This document shows positions 30,683-41,538 of a DNA stretch of 64,000 nucleotides, one piece after another. The notes beneath the pieces are model-generated. The model saw nothing but the letters and a program-made list of their open reading frames with translations. It had not been told where the DNA came from and did not search any database. The DNA comes from Thraustochytrium sp. TN22 (Eukaryota > Sar > Bigyra > Thraustochytrida > Thraustochytriidae), in the NCBI GenBank assembly GCA_013306675.1, contig JABLUY010000007.1, forward strand, positions 124,001 through 188,000, read 5' to 3'. Position 1 is the stretch's first letter. Each line of letters begins with the position of its first letter. A program made the position numbers and the translations under genes.

Positions 30683-31132
30683 ATGGCGACCACCGTGGCT
30701 ACCCCTGTCGCCGCGCCGGCGCGCACGCTGCGCACGCGCGCACCGCCTGCTGCCGCGGCGGCTCCGGAGGCGGCGGCCCCCAAGGCTGCCCCCAAGCGCA
30801 AGGCCCCCGCCGCCAAGGCGCCGGCCGCCAAGGCCGCCAAGGTGCGCAAGGCCGCCGCGCCCAAGGCGCCCAAGGAGCCCAAGGCGCCCAAGGAGAAGGC
30901 GGCGCCCAAGCCCAAGGCCGCGCCCAAGGAGAAGGCCGCCCCGAAGGAGAAGGCCGCGCCCAAGCCCAAGGCGGCGCCCAAGGCCCGCAAGCCGGCCGCC
31001 AAGAAGGAGAAGGCCGCGCCCAAGGGCAAGGCGGCTGAGAAGGAGGTCGCCCCGGTTGAGGAGGCCAAGGTGGAGGAGGAGGTCAAGGCCCCCGAGGCCA
31101 CCGAGGAGGTTGCCGAGGCCGAGGAGAACTAA
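30683..31132 (+). CDS. H1-like Lys/Ala/Pro-rich chromatin protein
   Basis: A 149-residue protein starting at ATG 30683 in the context ACAAGATGG. The N-terminus is Ala/Pro/Thr-rich with two Arg-containing segments (ARTLRTRAPP). Residues about 30-120 are a run of AAPK/KEKAAP-type units, the composition of linker histone H1 C-terminal domains. The last 25 residues are acidic (VEEAKVEEEVKAPEATEEVA). There is no winged-helix globular domain, as in the small H1-like proteins of several protist groups. It probably binds linker DNA; this is inference from composition. It converges on the selenoprotein H gene. Confidence 0.8.
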   Translation: MATTVATPVAAPARTLRTRAPPAAAAAPEAAAPKAAPKRKAPAAKAPAAKAAKVRKAAAPKAPKEPKAPKEKAAPKPKAAPKEKAAPKEKAAPKPKAAPKARKPAAKKEKAAPKGKAAEKEVAPVEEAKVEEEVKAPEATEEVAEAEEN

Positions 31133-31769
31133 AGGCGCACGCGCGACTGCCGTCTGTGCCTGCCTGCCTGCCGACCTGCCTGCCTGCCTGCCTGCCTGCC
31201 GACCTACCTGCCTCTACTCCACTCCAGCAACCCATCGCAACCATGACGGGGTGTCGTGCGTCGTACCGCGCCGCCCCGCGCCGCGACCGAGCGCCGTGAC
31301 CGGAAAGCCGGACATCGTTTGTGAGCTAAAATTGCTAGCTAGCTCTAGCTAGCTAGCGAGCGAGCGAGCTCGTTTCGACGGCTCTTCGCGCGCGCGCAAT
31401 TGCTCGATCGCATGACCAAACAGGGTCACATTACGAAAACTTTTTGTCACTCTCTGTACTCCTTTTCGTTTGCTCTGCCCGTCTCTCTCTCGCTGCGAGT
31501 CGTGCAGGGGAAGAGAAGGCGCCCCGCCCGATACAGCACAAGCTCGGCAGCAAGAAACGTTTGGAAAAATTGTTTGCTCTTCTCCCAAGACTAGCATGGG
31601 CAGGCGTTGAGTGTCGGCGCGCGGTCGGGCCTCGCTCGTGACGACGAAAAAAAAGTCAGCGTCGCAAGCAAGAAATGCGGATTTGAACCCAGCCGCGGGC
31701 GTCATAAAAACGGTGCATCGGGAAAGGCTGTATTGGACGAGCAGGGCGGAGACCGAAAGAGCTCCCTCG
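31133..31769. other. Convergent 3' region between H1-like and SelH genes
   Basis: Holds (CCTG)n at about 31158-31200, CTAG-rich sequence at about 31330-31365, and both 3' UTRs. The selenocysteine-insertion element of the minus-strand gene would be expected here; a weak candidate is at 31653-31705. Confidence 0.5.
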
Positions 31770-32600
31770 CTAGGCCTTGCCAAGCTTGGCGAGGATCTCG
31801 TCGGCGACTTGGTTGATGTCTAGCTCACGGAGCCTCTTGAAGGGGCGCGGCATGCCGACGAGCGAGACGACGGTCTCGCCCTTGCAGGTGACCTCAAAGG
31901 TGCCCTTGCGAGGGCGTCCCTGCGGATTGTAGGCCGCAGAGACACCCTGGGCAGCGAGGAGGTCGCGCAGCTTATTGAAACTGCGCATAAAGACGCCTCA
32001 GGACTTGCAGGCCTCAACGGCGGCCGCCTCGGGCTCCTTGGCCTCGGGCTCCTTGGCCTCGGGCTCCTTGGTCTCCTCGGTGGCGGCGGGCTTGTCCTCG
32101 GCGGCCTCGGGCTCGGCAGCCTCCTTGGTCTCCTCGACGACGGCCTCCTTGGGCTCCTCCTTCTTGGCCTCGTCCTTCTCCTTCTTGGCAGCGGGCTTCT
32201 TGGCGGCGGGCTTCTTCTCCGCGGCGGGCTTCTTCTCCGCGGCGGGCTTCTTCTCCGCGGCAGGCTTCTTCTCCGCGGCGGGCTTCTTGGCCGCGGCGGG
32301 CTTCTTCTCCTTGGCGGCGGCGGGCTTCTTCTCGGCGTCAGTCTTCTTGGCCGCAGCGGGCTTCTTGGCGGCGGCCGGCTTCTTCTCCGCGTCGGCCTTC
32401 TTGGCAGCGGGCTTCTTGGCGGCGGCGGGCTTCTTCTCCTTGGCGGCGGCCGGCTTCTTCTCCGCGTCGGCCTTCTTGGCGGCCGGCGCCTTCTTCGCCT
32501 TCTTCGCCTTGGCCGGCGCCTCCTGCGCGGCCTGCTGCGCCATCAGCTCCACCGGCCGCTTGCGCTCGCGCGTCGAGCGCCGCAGCTCCTCGCCCGCCAT
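31770..32600 (-). CDS. SELENOH: Selenoprotein H with H1-like N-terminal tail (in-frame TGA = Sec)
   Basis: Two frames that look separate, 32600-31998 (200 residues) and 31988-31770 (72 residues), are in the same phase and separated only by TGA (32000-31998) plus three codons. The TGA sits in Cys-Lys-Ser-TGA at residues 198-201, the CxxU redox motif of selenoprotein H (human Cys-Thr-Ser-Sec). Downstream are the family's other marks in order: a Val/hydrophobic turn, a helix, an Asn-Pro then PRKGTFEVT strand, and a final helix, with about the usual length (75 residues after Sec). The whole is 276 residues against about 122 in human. The extra length is a Lys/Ala/Pro-rich tail with an acidic end, preceded by RRSTRERKRPVE. 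Human SelH is a nucleolar DNA-binding oxidoreductase; nuclear location here is inferred. A plain stop at TGA would leave a tail-only protein and an orphan fold. Confidence 0.85.
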
Positions 32601-34029: not shown

Positions 34030-37000
34030 TCAGGACTTGGCGCGGTTCGGGACAAGGAGGTCAAAGGCGCCGGAGCCGGTGGTGAGCAGCTGGCCAAGGC
34101 AAAGGCGTGCCGAGGGAGAGGTGAGTGCGTCGGCCTCGTTCTCAATGGCGGCCTTGGTGAGGAAGTTGGAGGATGTCTCAAAGGTCATGCGCAGGAACGG
34201 CGAGGAGGAGCTCTCGATGCCGCCACGGTTGAGCGCGCGGTAGCCGCCCTCATACGTCATGAAGTCGGCAGTGAGCCCGAGGTGGTGGGCGGAGGAGGTG
34301 ATGCCGTAGACGCCAAAGACGTTCTTGACCTCGCGCACAATGGCGGCGCGCGCGGCCTCGACGCCGTAGGTGTGCAAAAAGGCGCCGACGTCGTTGGCCT
34401 GAATGGCGTTGACGTCGACGCCGAGGGGCGCCAGGCGCCAGGCCTCGGCGAAGTTGCAGCCAGCCGTCTGAATCGCCAGCCGCTTCTTCTCGCCCTTGCC
34501 CTGGTCCACATGGGCGGCCGAGATGCCCGGCACGGCGCGCATCACGGCGTGGCGGGCCACCTCCTCGGCAATGCCCACCAGGAGAATCTTCTTGCCCGAG
34601 GCCTTGAAGCGCAGCTTTACCTGCAGCTTGGCAGCGCGCTTCCCGCCCGCGCCCTCCGGCACGTAGTCGCAGTCCACGAAGAAGGACTGGCGCGCGCGCG
34701 TCGGGACGCTAATGCCCACAGCACGCCGGCCGGTGCGCGGCGCGGACGAGGTGACGCGCTTGCGGGCCACGGCGGCCGCGCGGTCCGCGCCGTCCGAGTC
34801 CGACTCGCTGCCCAGGCCCGAGGTCTCCGTGGTGCGCCCGTCCCGCGCACGCGAGTCCACGCTGCTGACATCGCTGTCCGAGCCCGTGTCCGAATCGTCG
34901 GCGCCAGCGTCCTGATTCTTCTTCTTCGTCTTTTTCTTGCTGTTGCCATCGGCGCCATCACGGCCCGCCTCGCTGTCGCTAGAGTCCACGACGGCCGCGT
35001 CGTCGGCGTCCACGTCGTCGTAGCCGTCCATCTCGGCGGTCTTGGCCTTCTTGCGGCCACCGGCCTCGGCCGCGTCGATCTCGTCGTTGTCGTCATCGTC
35101 GTCATCGTCGCCCTCCTCCTCGACATCGGAACCGTCGGCGCGGGCACCGGCGTCGCCATCCTCGTCGTCAGCGCCCGCAGCGCGGCCCGCGTTGCCCAGA
35201 GTCTCGGCCTTGGACTTGGAGATGGTCTTGGCGACGCGGCGCAGCTCCTTGAGGATGGCGCTCACGAGCTTGGGAACAAACTCGTCGCCGAACTGCGCGG
35301 CAATCTCCTCCATGTCAAGCGAAAACTCCTGCTTGATGCCGCCGAGCGGCTGCAGGCGCATGACCAGCGTGTACTCGCGGTACCACTCGCCCGAGCCGCG
35401 CTCCACGCGCGAAAGCTCCGCTGCCTCGGCGCCGTAGGCGAACTGGCCTGTCCGCTTGGACAGGCGGCAGAGCGTCTCGTGCACCTCGATGCCACGCTTG
35501 GCGCAGATGAGCTCCGAGAGCCGCACGCGGTACAGCTTGGCCTTGATGGCCTCGGCCTGTTCCAGCGTCACGTCGGGCCGCAGCGGCAGCACCATGGACG
35601 GCGTCTTGATCTTCTGCGACGCCGTCATGAGCAGCTCGCGCAGGCGCGGGATGCCCAGCGTCACGTTGCCGGCGCCGTGGCCCGCCAGATGGAAGGTGTT
35701 GAGCGTCATCTGCGTACTTGGTTCGCCAATACTCTGCGCCGCGATCACGCCTACGTTCTCGCCCGGCGCACACAGCGACTTGAGGTACTTGACGTAGAAG
35801 ATGTTGCGCAGGCGCTCCTTCTCCTCCTCGGACTTGAGCTGCTGCCCCGGGTTGCGCTCCAAGAAGTCGTCCAGCTTCTCTTGCAGACGCTCGCTAATGG
35901 AACCCAGGTACTGGTCCGGCGACAGCTCCGCCATGACCGGATCCGGCATGCGGCTATACACGAGCTGCGCGCGGTCCGACGCAAGCGGCACACGCACCAC
36001 CTCACCATCGCTCTCAAAGCGCACGTCCACCGCGCCGAGGCGCTTGTGCGTCTTGAGAATGCGCCCCGCTTGAAGCCCCGGCAGGTACGAGTCGTCCTTG
36101 CCCAGATCCGTGGCGCCCGGCCGCGGTCGCCGCGCGCGCACCTCGGCGTTCGCGAAGAGCGGAATCTGACCGTCCGCCGCGCGCCCCGCCTTCTCGCGCG
36201 TGCGCGACACGCGATGGTACCACGAGCGCGCCTCCGTCATGTTGATGCCCTTGTCCTCGGCCGCGCTTACGTTGAGCTCGCTCGCACCCGAGCCCATGCG
36301 CAGCCGCTTCAGCAGCGCGCGCGCGTTCGCGTGCAGGAACCCCAGCGTGAAGTCGTCGCCGCTCAGGTAGCTCGTGTTGAGCGCGTCCAGACCGTCACCG
36401 CCGTAGATGAACTGCACCACGCCACCGTCCGCCTGCCGCACCGTGCGGTCGTAGCCCACCGACAGCGTCTCCATGTGCTTCACCAGACACCGCTGAAGGT
36501 AGCCGGAGCGAGCGGTCTTGACGGCTGTGTCGATCAGGCCCTCGCGGCCAGCCATGCAGTGGAAGTAATACTCCTGGGGCCGCACGCCCGTGAGGAAACG
36601 GTCGCTCACGTAGCCGCCGGCACGCGGCGTCGGGTCGAACGGCGAGAAGCACGGCAGCGACTTGCCGGCGATGCTGCGTGGCACGCGCCGGCCTTCAAGC
36701 GCCTGCTGGCCCAGCGCGCACGAGATTTGCGAGTGGTTCACCAGCGAGCCCTTGGCGCCCGTGTGCACCATGCGCGAGAAGCAGTTCTCCGGGAACGGCT
36801 TGCGCTGGCCCTGCGGCAGGCACCCCTTGATGATGTCTGAGGTAATCTTGCTCGTCACGCCCTGCATCGCGCCGTCCAGCAGAGCCTCGTCGTCCTGGCC
36901 TGCCGCCTCCGTCCGGATGCGATGCTCCAGCGCGCGTGCCACGTCCTCGTTTGTCGCCTTCGCACGCTGCGACTCCTCAATGCCGGCGAACTCCGCCGAC

Positions 37001-40000
37001 AGCTGAACACCCTGCGCCACCGAGGAGCGGATGCGCTCCGTGCGCAGGTTCTCCGCTTCGCGGTTTAGGACCAGGTCCTCGATCGCGCACGTATGGCCCC
37101 ACTTTTGTGCGCAGTACGTGAAGAGCCGCCCGAACGCAGACAGCAGCTCACCCGCCGCGTTCGGTCCGTAGAGTTCTGTGCATGGAAATCAAAAGACCCC
37201 GTCTCCGTCAGTATTCTCTGCCTCCTTGCCTGCTTGCCGCTTCCCCAAGTGCAAGATCTTGTTACGTATGGGCGAGTGAGCGCGAGGGCAGAGGCCATGC
37301 ACAGGCCTCGCTCTCATGCAACCCAGAGGTTGGCACTGCACTCGCAACTCGACTGTGCGGACAACTGAAAAGAGCTCCCGTCATGGACGCCGAGGCGACT
37401 GATGGGCTCATCCCTTGTGTCCGGACCGTTTTCTTTTCTCTCTCTCTCTCTCTCTCTCTCCCCTTGCACGCGTGCACGCGCGAATAGAAACGTACCGTAG
37501 ACAGAATGCACGAGGCCGTGCTTGGAGGCGCCAAACTGCGCCTTGTCAAGAATGCCCGTAAGAAGCTCGCCCTTGCGAACAATGACGCGCGTCTGGCCGA
37601 GCGGGCCGTCGACCTCGCCCACAAAGGCGGCCGCCTTGCGCTCAGCCTCGGACATCTCCTCCGGCTTCGGCTCAGGATAGACCTTCCAGGCAGCAGCAGG
37701 AGTCTTGGTCTTGCCAGGGCCCATGGTGAGCAGCTGGTCCGGGTCAGTGGTGCCAACCAAATGGGCGAGGAGCGAGGAGATGACCTGCTTGCCAGACCAC
37801 ATCGGCTTGGGCTTGAGGATGCAGGGCGGCAGCAGGCGGATCTCCGGCGAACGAGACTTCATGGCACCACAAGCCTCCACGAGCATCTGCGTATACTCCT
37901 CGCGCGTGAGGAAGGTGTTCTGCTTAGTAAGCATAACGCCCATGTCGACGTGGTCCTGGATAAGGCCGCGCAGCGGGTTGCCGTCCGTTGTGCTGCAGTA
38001 CTGGTGATTGGTGTAGGCGATCTCATACGCCTCGGCGCGACAAAGCTCAGACTGTGGCAGGTGCAGGTTGATCTCGTCGCCGTCGAAATCGGCGTTGTAC
38101 GAGTTGCAGTTCGCGTAGTGCAGGCGAATGGTCTGCATGGACTCGTTGTTGATGACGCGGACCTTGTGGGCCATGAGCGAGGGCTTGTGCAGCGTCGGCT
38201 GACGGTTCGCCAGCATGACGTCGCCGGAGCGAACGTGGCGCCACACCTTCATCTGGCCCTGCAGAGAGAGAGGTGCCAGCGCACGGTTGTGCTCGCGCCG
38301 GTACAGACCATCGTCGTTGCCAGGGCGGAAGCCGCCAGCGCGCGCCTGAGCGTTCTCCACAAGACGCAGCGCGTGCAGGTTGGTCAGCTGATCCGCCAGC
38401 TCCTCGCGCTGGCGCTCCGTGCGACGTGAAAGGTCAATGAGCTGGCCCTGCTCGTCCTCCACAAAGGCGGCGCCCGGGTAGTGCTCCATGCCGTTGCGCA
38501 CCATACCGGCGAGCTCCTCGACGTTCCACGAGGTGACCGGCTCGCGGTAGTGCAGCTTGCGCGCGAAGCGGACCGGGAGGCCCACCTCGTCCGTGCCGAT
38601 GTAGGGATCGGGCGAGATGACAGACCGCGCGGCGTAGTTGACACGCTTGCCCATCATGTTCTGGCGAAAGAGACCCTCCTTCTTCTCAAGCGTTTGGCGC
38701 ACGCCGGGCGCCGGGTCGCGCGTGTTCACCTTGGACGAGTCCAAGAAGGCATTCACCGCCTCCTGCATCTCCACCCACGTGTTGAGGGCTCGCGTCACCT
38801 TGTCGGTCTGCAGGCCGCGCATCCGACGAGCCGCGTCGCGGGCAGACGCCGGGGCGCTCGCCTTGGCCGTCACCAAGGCGCCGGACGACGACGCAGAGGA
38901 GTCGTCCGCCTCCTCATCGCTCGAGTTCACAGCGCCGTCTTCTTCGGCGTCCTCGCTGAACACCTGGCGCAGCGTCTCGTCAGCCTTGATGATGGCGGCC
39001 AGCGCCGTGTTCTGCGGGTGCTCAAAGAGCGAGCCGGCCATGCGCGCGGGCGGCCGGAAGCGCGACGGCGGCACAGCCAGCGTCTGACAGAAGAACGCCT
39101 CGTAGCCGCGCGGGTTCACGCCGCCGCGCACGCGGCACCAGATGCGACTGCAGATGCTAGCCTCGGCGCGCCACAGGGCTTGCAGCTGCTCGCGCACCTC
39201 GGCCGGATGCACGTAGGTCTCCTGTACAGCCGCCGATGACGTGACGCTGTCAAGGGCGTGGCCCTCGCTAACGCCGGCGCTCTTGGGCGTGCGCGCGCCC
39301 TCAGGCACAGCGAGCGCCTCTGGGGCCGCGGCCTTTGCTTTGTCCTCGGCCTTCTTCTTCTTCTGCTTCTGCTTCTGCTTCTGCGCCTCGCTGCGGCGCT
39401 TGTCGTCGTTGTCGTCGTCGGATTCGTCGTCGTCGTCGTCGGACTCGTCGCTGCTGTCGACCCTCTCCGACGCCGAAGACTTGCCGTTGCTCCCCTTGGC
39501 GCCATCCTCGTCCTTGTCTTCGTCCTCGTCCTCATCCGCACCCTCCTCAGCCTCGTCGTCCGCGAGCGAGCTGCGGGCCGCAGAGGCCGTTGGCGCGCGG
39601 CGCACGGAACCGCGGACGGGACGCGCGCGGCCTTTGACCGGGATGCGAAAGATCTTGAGGTAGCCGTCCTTGCGGTACCTGGCGGCCGGCACGCGGCACG
39701 ACACGCACTGGACCGGTTGCGAGCGCATGAAGTCCTTGACAACCTCGCGCCAAAGCGAACGCGCCTGCATGTGCATCTGCACGCGCGGCGCGCGGCTGTT
39801 GGCGCCCGGCACAGCCGCGGCGCTGGCGTCAGCAGCAGCCGAGACGGTCGCGGCGCTGAGCGCCTCCTGCGCCGCAGCCTCATGGCGCGCCAGCACACGG
39901 TCCATGTGCGCCATCTTGAGCGCAGGGCCGTCCGTAGTCTTGGTGAGCGGCGCCACACCAGACGCCATCAGCTCCTCGTCCAGCTTGCTGGCCTCGCTGT

Positions 40001-40430
40001 ACATATTGGCCTCCAGAAGCAGCAGCTTCACCCGAGTGACGCGCACCTGGTGGCGCGCCATGCGGAAGTGCTTGCAGATGGGGCACATCATCTTGAGCAG
40101 CGCATACATGGTCGGAAACAGCAAGGGGTTATACACCGGCACGCAGAGCTCCACGTGGCCCAGGTGACCCGGGCACTGCAAGCTGTCCAGCCCGCACGTC
40201 GGGCACAGTCCGTGCTCGCGATCCGTCGGCCCCATGGCCAGGTCGTACAGACCTCCTGCCACCGGGTTGCTGAGCGCGTCGAACGACAGCGGCGACGTGA
40301 TGCGCAGCGCGCTCAGCCGCGCGATCTCGTCCTTGTTGTACCACCCGAAGGAGACCTCGCGCAGCTCATTCAGCATGGCGAACCGCCCCGACGAGCTATT
40401 GCCCGCCGGCATCTCGCCCGAGAAGCTCAT
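34030..40430 (-). CDS. RPA1: RNA polymerase I largest subunit (RPA190/RPA1), two exons
   Basis: Exon 1 is 40430-37496 and exon 2 is 37175-34030; together they give 2026 codons with no leftover base. I start at [10 protein letters not shown], since the frame upstream opens at a GTG. The clamp zinc site [14 protein letters not shown] is at residues 76-89, and the Mg2+-binding catalytic loop NADFDGDE is at about residue 780. Exon 2 carries the conserved [36 protein letters not shown] (trigger-loop region) and [18 protein letters not shown] blocks. It transcribes pre-rRNA in the nucleolus. At about 2026 residues it is longer than usual (about 1660-1720); acidic insertions near 39330-39560 and 34740-35180 explain this. 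The second is where Pol I carries its acidic linker, so the identity as Pol I rather than II or III is well supported. Confidence 0.94.
37176..37495 (-). other. Intron of RPA1 with (GA)n
   Basis: A 320-nt phase-1 intron, donor GTACG after CTACG and acceptor CATGCACAG before AACTC. Joining gives HSVY-E-LYG, which restores a conserved polymerase segment. It contains a (GA)n run at about 37438-37462 (read on minus). Confidence 0.9.
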
Positions 40431-41538
40431 TGCGCGCGGGCTCTCGCCGGCGCGCCCCAGCCCCGATGCGCCGCGCCACGCCTCCGCGTGCGCGCGCTCC
40501 GAGACTGCTGCCTGCCTGTGCCGCCGCTCCGCGCCGCCCCGCGCCACCCGCGCGACCCCGCTCCGCGGCCAGTGAGGGGTCGGTTGGTCCTTAGAAAAGG
40601 GCGTCGCAACGCGGGCAAATTAGACCGGTTCGACGGCGAACCCGGTCTATTTTCATGACCATGTCGCTTGTGATCCACATGCGCTCGAGAGCAATGCTTT
40701 AGCCAGACATAGTTCAATTGCTTTATGCTCCGCTTCCTGAAATTTTGATAGTTGTTGGTTCTTTTTTGGTGCTGTTATCTATTATTGAAGATGACACCTT
40801 CGTGACCATCTGTAGATCAAGCATTCCAGTTCTGGGTGTTCCCTTCGACAGAGGAGCCTCAAGACGGTGAGAGGTGTCCGCATGCCCTCGTAGTGCACTT
40901 GAAATTCGAGCTCGGGTATCTATAGGTCCTTCAAAGAACTCGAACTCTCTTGAAGTTTTCTCATGAAATAATCAATCGAATTGTGATTTTCTTCGGCCAT
41001 TGAACATAAAGGTTACATAGCTTTCTTTTGTGCCAATTTTGATTGTGTCTGAGATGAATTGATTGAATATTTCGCATGAGAAGTTTGTTGTATTTGCCAC
41101 TGTACAAATCCGTAGTTAGAGAAATGGGGGGTACGCACTACCAAGTTAGGCTGTCTTGTGTGACATGTACACACCTTCTTCGTCGCATGAGGCGTTGACT
41201 CGGGGCCGGGTTCTGCCAGCTTGCTCGTGCAAGCCCTGTCCCAGCGTATAATGGCCGTGCGAGCGGTCTGCGAGCGAGAGCTGAGAAAGCGAAAGGGATT
41301 GCACGCGCGCGCGTACGACGCGCGCGTGCGCGTACGAGGCATCCGCTGCGCGCGGTCGTGCCGAAGCCCCGGCCTCGGGCTGCTCCCATCGTTGTGAGGC
41401 ATCATCCATCCCGCGGATCCGCGGGCGCGGATCCGCGGGCGGGACGCGGGCTGAGGTGGCGCCTTGGCGCGCTTGCGCCTTGGCGCGCTTGCGCCTTGGC
41501 GCGGCTGCGCGCCGCGCAAGGGTCAGGGTCTGGCCACC
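40431..41538. other. Divergent promoter region with an AT-rich island and hairpins
   Basis: Between the start of RPA1 and the start of the transposase gene. From about 40650 to 41110 base composition is far more AT-rich than elsewhere in the window. Hairpins: 40621-40649 (TAGACCGGTTCG with its complement, one-base bulge), 41302-41328 (10-bp GC stem, 7-nt loop) and the perfect palindrome CCCGCGGATCCGCGGG at 41410-41425. A 16-bp unit GCGCCTTGGCGCGCTT is repeated about three times at 41459-41505. Confidence 0.6.

Follow-up and report, generated by a model that had tools for sequence, protein, structure and literature searches.

Does the minus strand between positions 32600 and 31770 of the window (the whole stretch of DNA analysed, 64,000 nucleotides long) carry two separate frames, or a single selenoprotein H (SelH) gene in which a TGA encodes selenocysteine (Sec)? 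Read from ATG 32600 to TAG 31770, this strand is one frame whose sole interruption is a TGA at 31998-32000. The ORF before the interruption (31998-32600) comprises 200 codons and ends in EACKS; the TGA is followed by GVF and an in-frame ATG at 31988, and 75 codons separate it from the TAG. With the TGA taken as Sec (U), the product has 276 aa with U at position 201 and CKSU at residues 198-201, a CxxU motif containing the in-frame TGA that aligns gap-free with CTSU of human SelH. The tail has a GC3 of 0.97, against 0.81 downstream of the TGA. A sequence-only reading of the locus had described two frames in phase around a TGA at the Sec position, a tail of 197 residues before CKS, and the SelH landmarks NP and PRKGTFEVT within the 75 codons that follow; on reading the frame, its coordinates, the Cys-Lys-Ser-TGA motif, the tail length and the landmarks were all found to be correct. 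Judged from its sequence, the interval would, with a probability of roughly 0.9, be one SelH gene with an in-frame Sec codon. The SelH family is already known, and the traits that would be unusual in this member are its long N-terminal arm and the placement of the UGA after that arm. Coordinates of the features are collected in Table 1.

Table 1. Positions in the window of the predicted SelH gene and its candidate elements
Feature	Position	Strand	Basis
Predicted SelH coding sequence, intronless as read, 276 residues, Sec 201	31770..32600	-	frame reading, GC3
N-terminal tail, 197 residues before CKS	32010..32600	-	composition; no Pfam family at E ≤ 1
Imperfect coding minisatellite, 18-bp period, 14.8 copies, 75% matches	32203..32477	-	holds 12 of 13 KKPAA
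Putative Rdx (SelH) domain, VEACKSU to C-terminus, 82 residues	31773..32018	-	TIGR02174, Rdx, BLASTP, z 9.1
TGA predicted to be read as selenocysteine in C-K-S-U	31998..32000	-	frame, profile, BLASTP, shuffles
SECIS candidate: AUGA 31705-31702, AAA apical loop, 3' CGAC 31616-31613	31613..31705	-	relaxed descriptor, fold, shuffles

At E 4.9e-5, the NCBIfam profile TIGR02174 (SelT/SelW/SelH) matched an 87-residue piece that brackets the TGA and extends beyond it, the match spanning the TGA; the entire 276-aa reading was matched at E 4.5e-4. The score of 23.5 bits for the 87-residue piece lies below the curated cut-off of 34.2 (human SelH scores 74.4). Pfam Rdx (PF10262) matched the 87-residue piece at E 0.059, with 14.0 bits against a cut-off of 22.6 (39.5 for human SelH), and at E ≤ 1 matched neither the full 276-aa reading nor the 72 aa from ATG 31988. 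The cut-offs of both profiles are naming (annotation) thresholds, not defining features. When the genome was searched with TIGR02174 at E ≤ 10, seven matches were returned and the SelH gene was not among them. Pfam HTH_29 matched better than Rdx (E 7.7e-4), yet this identity was rejected because the match is below the family's own cut-off and leaves both CKSU and the SECIS unexplained.

Pairwise comparison with human SelH (C for Sec) by BLASTP gave E 3e-7 in a single comparison, with 24 of 81 positions identical. Local alignments were scored against 2000 shuffles each: the domain reached z 9.1 against human SelH (none of the 2000 shuffles attaining the score), versus 2.5 against human SelW, 1.4 against the genome's own SelT and -0.4 to 2.6 against six other Rdx-like pieces of the genome. 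The portion downstream of the TGA alone gave z 5.9 against human SelH, and the alignment score rose from 50 without the CKSU strand to 70 with it. Given these contrasts the similarity is SelH-specific and spans the TGA, with SelW and SelT both more distant from the domain than SelH is. In the rest of the genome, the portion downstream of the TGA had no other match at E ≤ 10. Relatives of the domain sought in viral_contigs and genome_contigs gave 8 and 52 pattern matches, respectively, of which 0 were confirmed, and a search of the PDB at E ≤ 10 with human SelH did not find a SelH structure.

A strict SECIS descriptor, which limits the UGA-to-AA spacing to 9-14 nt, picked up the element of the genome's SelT gene and none in the SelH 3' UTR. 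The SelH candidate came from a relaxed descriptor applied after the strict one had failed, and the background figures given here are likewise those of the relaxed descriptor. It is composed of AUGAC, a helix II of 12 pairs with two mismatches, an AAA apical loop, a second stem and CGAC, and it starts 64 nt past the TAG and 293 nt past the TGA; the SECIS that the sequence-only reading required of the transcript is represented by this candidate 3' of the TAG. Unconstrained MFE and centroid folds gave the same stems, with z -2.66; an equally good fold arose in 2 of 200 shuffles, and the SelT element, folded as a control, gave z -3.04. When the 600 nt downstream of the stop were shuffled 1000 times with dinucleotides preserved, an AUGA element of at least 12 pairs occurred in 4 of the shuffled sequences, and an [AG]UGA element of that size in 17. 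Over both strands of the 64-kb window the relaxed descriptor matched 18 times, and six of these matches, including the SelH candidate, had at least 12 pairs.

Thirteen loci of the genome were also scanned with the relaxed descriptor on one or both strands, and at five of them (L011, L013, L017, L020 and L021) an AUGA element with an AAAG loop was present on the gene strand; for L013 the search did not locate the Sec exon that would go with the element. Background-like GUGA matches occurred at L014 (two), at L017 (two, beside the AUGA element) and at L022 (one), and a 13-pair GUGA element at L031, antisense to the gene, is likewise background-like. The distance from UGA to AA is 17 nt in the SelH candidate versus 13-14 nt in the five other elements, and its loop is AAAU where the five have AAAG; for these two reasons the putative SelH SECIS is graded as good, not the cleanest. 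Rfam SECIS models gave no match in the window and likewise none at five other loci of the genome with clear SECIS elements, so the negative result says little. An alignment of five SECIS elements with MAFFT was too poor for a covariance model.

The genome searched is a 37.9-Mb assembly of 453 contigs containing eukaryotic genes, RNA polymerase I and eEFSec among them. Of the Sec machinery, whose absence would have told against a Sec codon, four components were found: a tRNA-Sec (anticodon TCA, 73.9 bits), SepSecS (E 2.6e-114), eEFSec (L024; below the TIGR00475 cut-off, with human-type eEFSec 5izk as best PDB match at E 3.7e-127) and SelD, a Cys-type selenophosphate synthetase fused, in one frame, behind a pyridine nucleotide-disulphide oxidoreductase domain (Pyr_redox_2, E 3.4e-22) (L022, G000 C23:39679-40629). 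The genome's own SelT contains CTSU (L011) and has an AUGA..AAAG SECIS, and two GPx genes with a TGA at the catalytic place (L020 and L021) each have an AUGA..AAAG SECIS. With SelH-specific similarity across the TGA, a SECIS candidate and the Sec machinery in place, the SelH identity proposed for the part after the TGA is well supported.

Several further selenoprotein-related genes were observed. L020 (SKUGLT, TGA, with its SECIS) forms a tandem pair with the Cys-type GPx L019 (GQCGLT), 1.4 kb apart on one strand (G000 C43:76813 and 78231). At L017:1351-1749 (+), a SelW-like frame starting at ATG 1351 has C-K-U-C where SelW has CxxU, with a Cys directly after the TGA, and a SECIS (AUGAC..UAAAG..CGAA) is located downstream of this frame at about 1906. 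Its family match is weak (TIGR02174 E 0.225; Rdx E 0.0025, below cut-off and only after the motif), and a CxUC redox motif within the Rdx family is possible. L016 (G000 C217:27639-27872) contains an Rdx-like piece (E 0.0026), set in an open frame of 1425 residues in which no CxxU is visible. Light-harvesting proteins (PF00504) gave 0 matches in the genome, and the organism is therefore probably not photosynthetic.

The 200 codons before the TGA encode 62 A, 52 K, 34 E and 22 P and contain 13 KKPAA; residues 1-150 of this arm are basic (50 K+R, 22 D+E) and residues 151-200 acidic (7 K+R, 17 D+E). The tail had been described as histone-H1-like. It is indeed K/A/P-rich, and the resemblance to H1 is one of composition: Pfam gave no family at E ≤ 1 and no linker-histone domain, and the seven PDB sequences matched at E ≤ 10 include no H1 chain. 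An H1 fusion by descent is unsupported. Six of the seven PDB matches are ribosomal uL4 tails, the best at E 5.1e-4 over residues 57-133, and the seventh is LRC3 (E 0.55). Searched against its own genome at E ≤ 0.001, with 150 of 1047 candidates scored, the tail matched itself only. Tail-to-tail with the SelH gene is an ORF at 30683-31132 (+) that encodes 149 aa; its product is K/A/P-rich and, as in the SelH arm, a basic part is followed by an acidic one. Copying of the tail from this neighbour is not supported, since BLASTP gave no alignment between the two at E ≤ 100.

The most plausible view of the arm is that it enlarges the basic N-terminus of SelH. PMC10650576 describes human SelH as nucleolar and DNA-binding, with an AT-hook and an RKRK nuclear motif; on the strength of that account, a basic arm would be a family trait, enlarged here, and one that binds nucleic acid would be less surprising than the sequence-only reading held. 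The basic N-terminus may have been lengthened by the KKPAA-coding minisatellite, which makes up much of the tail, into the present arm, basic and then acidic. Through electrostatic contacts with nuclear or nucleolar nucleic acid, this arm would probably tether the enzyme. We give a nuclear or nucleolar tether about even odds. If the arm does bind nucleic acid, this gene offers a natural test of the role of SelH's basic end. Upstream of SelH, on the shared strand, is the gene for the largest subunit of RNA polymerase I (34030-40619, minus strand), in which Pfam Rpb1 domains were found in two frames and the second half has RPA190 as its best PDB match (E 2.3e-175). That both products would be nucleolar is probably coincidence.

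According to the reading as a SelH gene, the ribosome would decode UGA 201 as selenocysteine, directed by the putative SECIS downstream of the UAG, and the C-terminal 82 residues would form an Rdx redox domain with CKSU as its active site; we infer both the Sec insertion and the redox activity from the features described above. An extension of this reading, which we consider unlikely, is that selenium supply selects between two products. When selenium is short, termination at the UGA would yield a bare 200-aa arm, and when it is plentiful, Sec insertion would yield the armed enzyme. Such a choice is suggested by a UGA that sits after a full-length arm, unlike that of human SelH (Sec 44 of 122), and with no intron in the gene as read, an mRNA on which translation stops at the UGA should escape decay that depends on exon junctions; against this, low Sec efficiency often merely lowers the protein level, and the bare arm may be unstable. 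Were both made, as nuclear proteins from one mRNA, a coat on chromatin or in the nucleolus would gain or lose redox activity with selenium status. Because the UGA follows an arm that is already complete, a choice of this kind governed by selenium is directly testable.

It is very improbable that translation simply ends at the TGA, the product being a 200-aa K/A/P-rich protein and the SelH-like part either a remnant or separately translated from ATG 31988. The locus would be read in this manner by a standard gene caller, the tail is a complete ORF and the domain profile scores are weak, but a start at ATG 31988 drops the first strand and CKSU, both of which are included in the SelH similarity (score 70 vs 50), and the frame beyond the TGA is intact, keeps its GC3 of 0.81 and is followed by a SECIS-like element 3' of the TAG. 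Removal of the TGA by a small intron is hardly credible: other genes of the genome (GPx, by reading) appear to contain introns and seven in-phase GT-AG pairs of at least 20 nt surround the TGA between 31880 and 32060 (one starts at 32004 and spans 24 nt, the other six start at 32018 and span 48 to 138 nt), but all seven delete part or all of the SelH-aligned CKSU, the SECIS would become needless, and 24 nt is shorter than nearly all known introns.

As one gene with an internal Sec codon, the locus would probably be missed or split by standard annotation. Among algal Sec proteins, SELENOH is one of the most widespread (PMC7539508), and PMC2375036 reports SelH from Ostreococcus and Drosophila. 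A SelH with a long K/A/P-rich arm is not named in the portions consulted of PMC7539508, PMC10650576, PMC2375036, PMC6627142, PMC2874816 and PMC3473315, which does not prove its absence from the literature. The present gene would place SelH in a selenoprotein-using, apparently non-photosynthetic eukaryote, with an N-terminal arm far larger than in man.

Compared with human SELENOH, the predicted protein has CKSU in place of CTSU and shares the NP and PR.G.FEVT landmarks. A basic N-terminus is common to both proteins, but the tail here is without RGRP or GRP, although QGRPRKG does occur in the domain, within its NP..FEVT loop. In human SelH the Sec is residue 44 of 122 and is preceded by 43 residues, versus 200 here. 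The best PDB match of the tail, the C-terminal tail of ribosomal uL4, belongs to a different protein; as the sequence is of low complexity the match does not imply homology and is probably compositional. The C-terminal tail of linker histone H1 is rich in K, A and P, a composition that the SelH arm shares without the globular winged-helix domain (no Pfam family at E ≤ 1). Drosophila BthD, the fly SelH, likewise joins a SelH domain to a long, charged, lysine-rich tail; that tail is C-terminal, whereas the one described here is N-terminal and built with KKPAA repeats.
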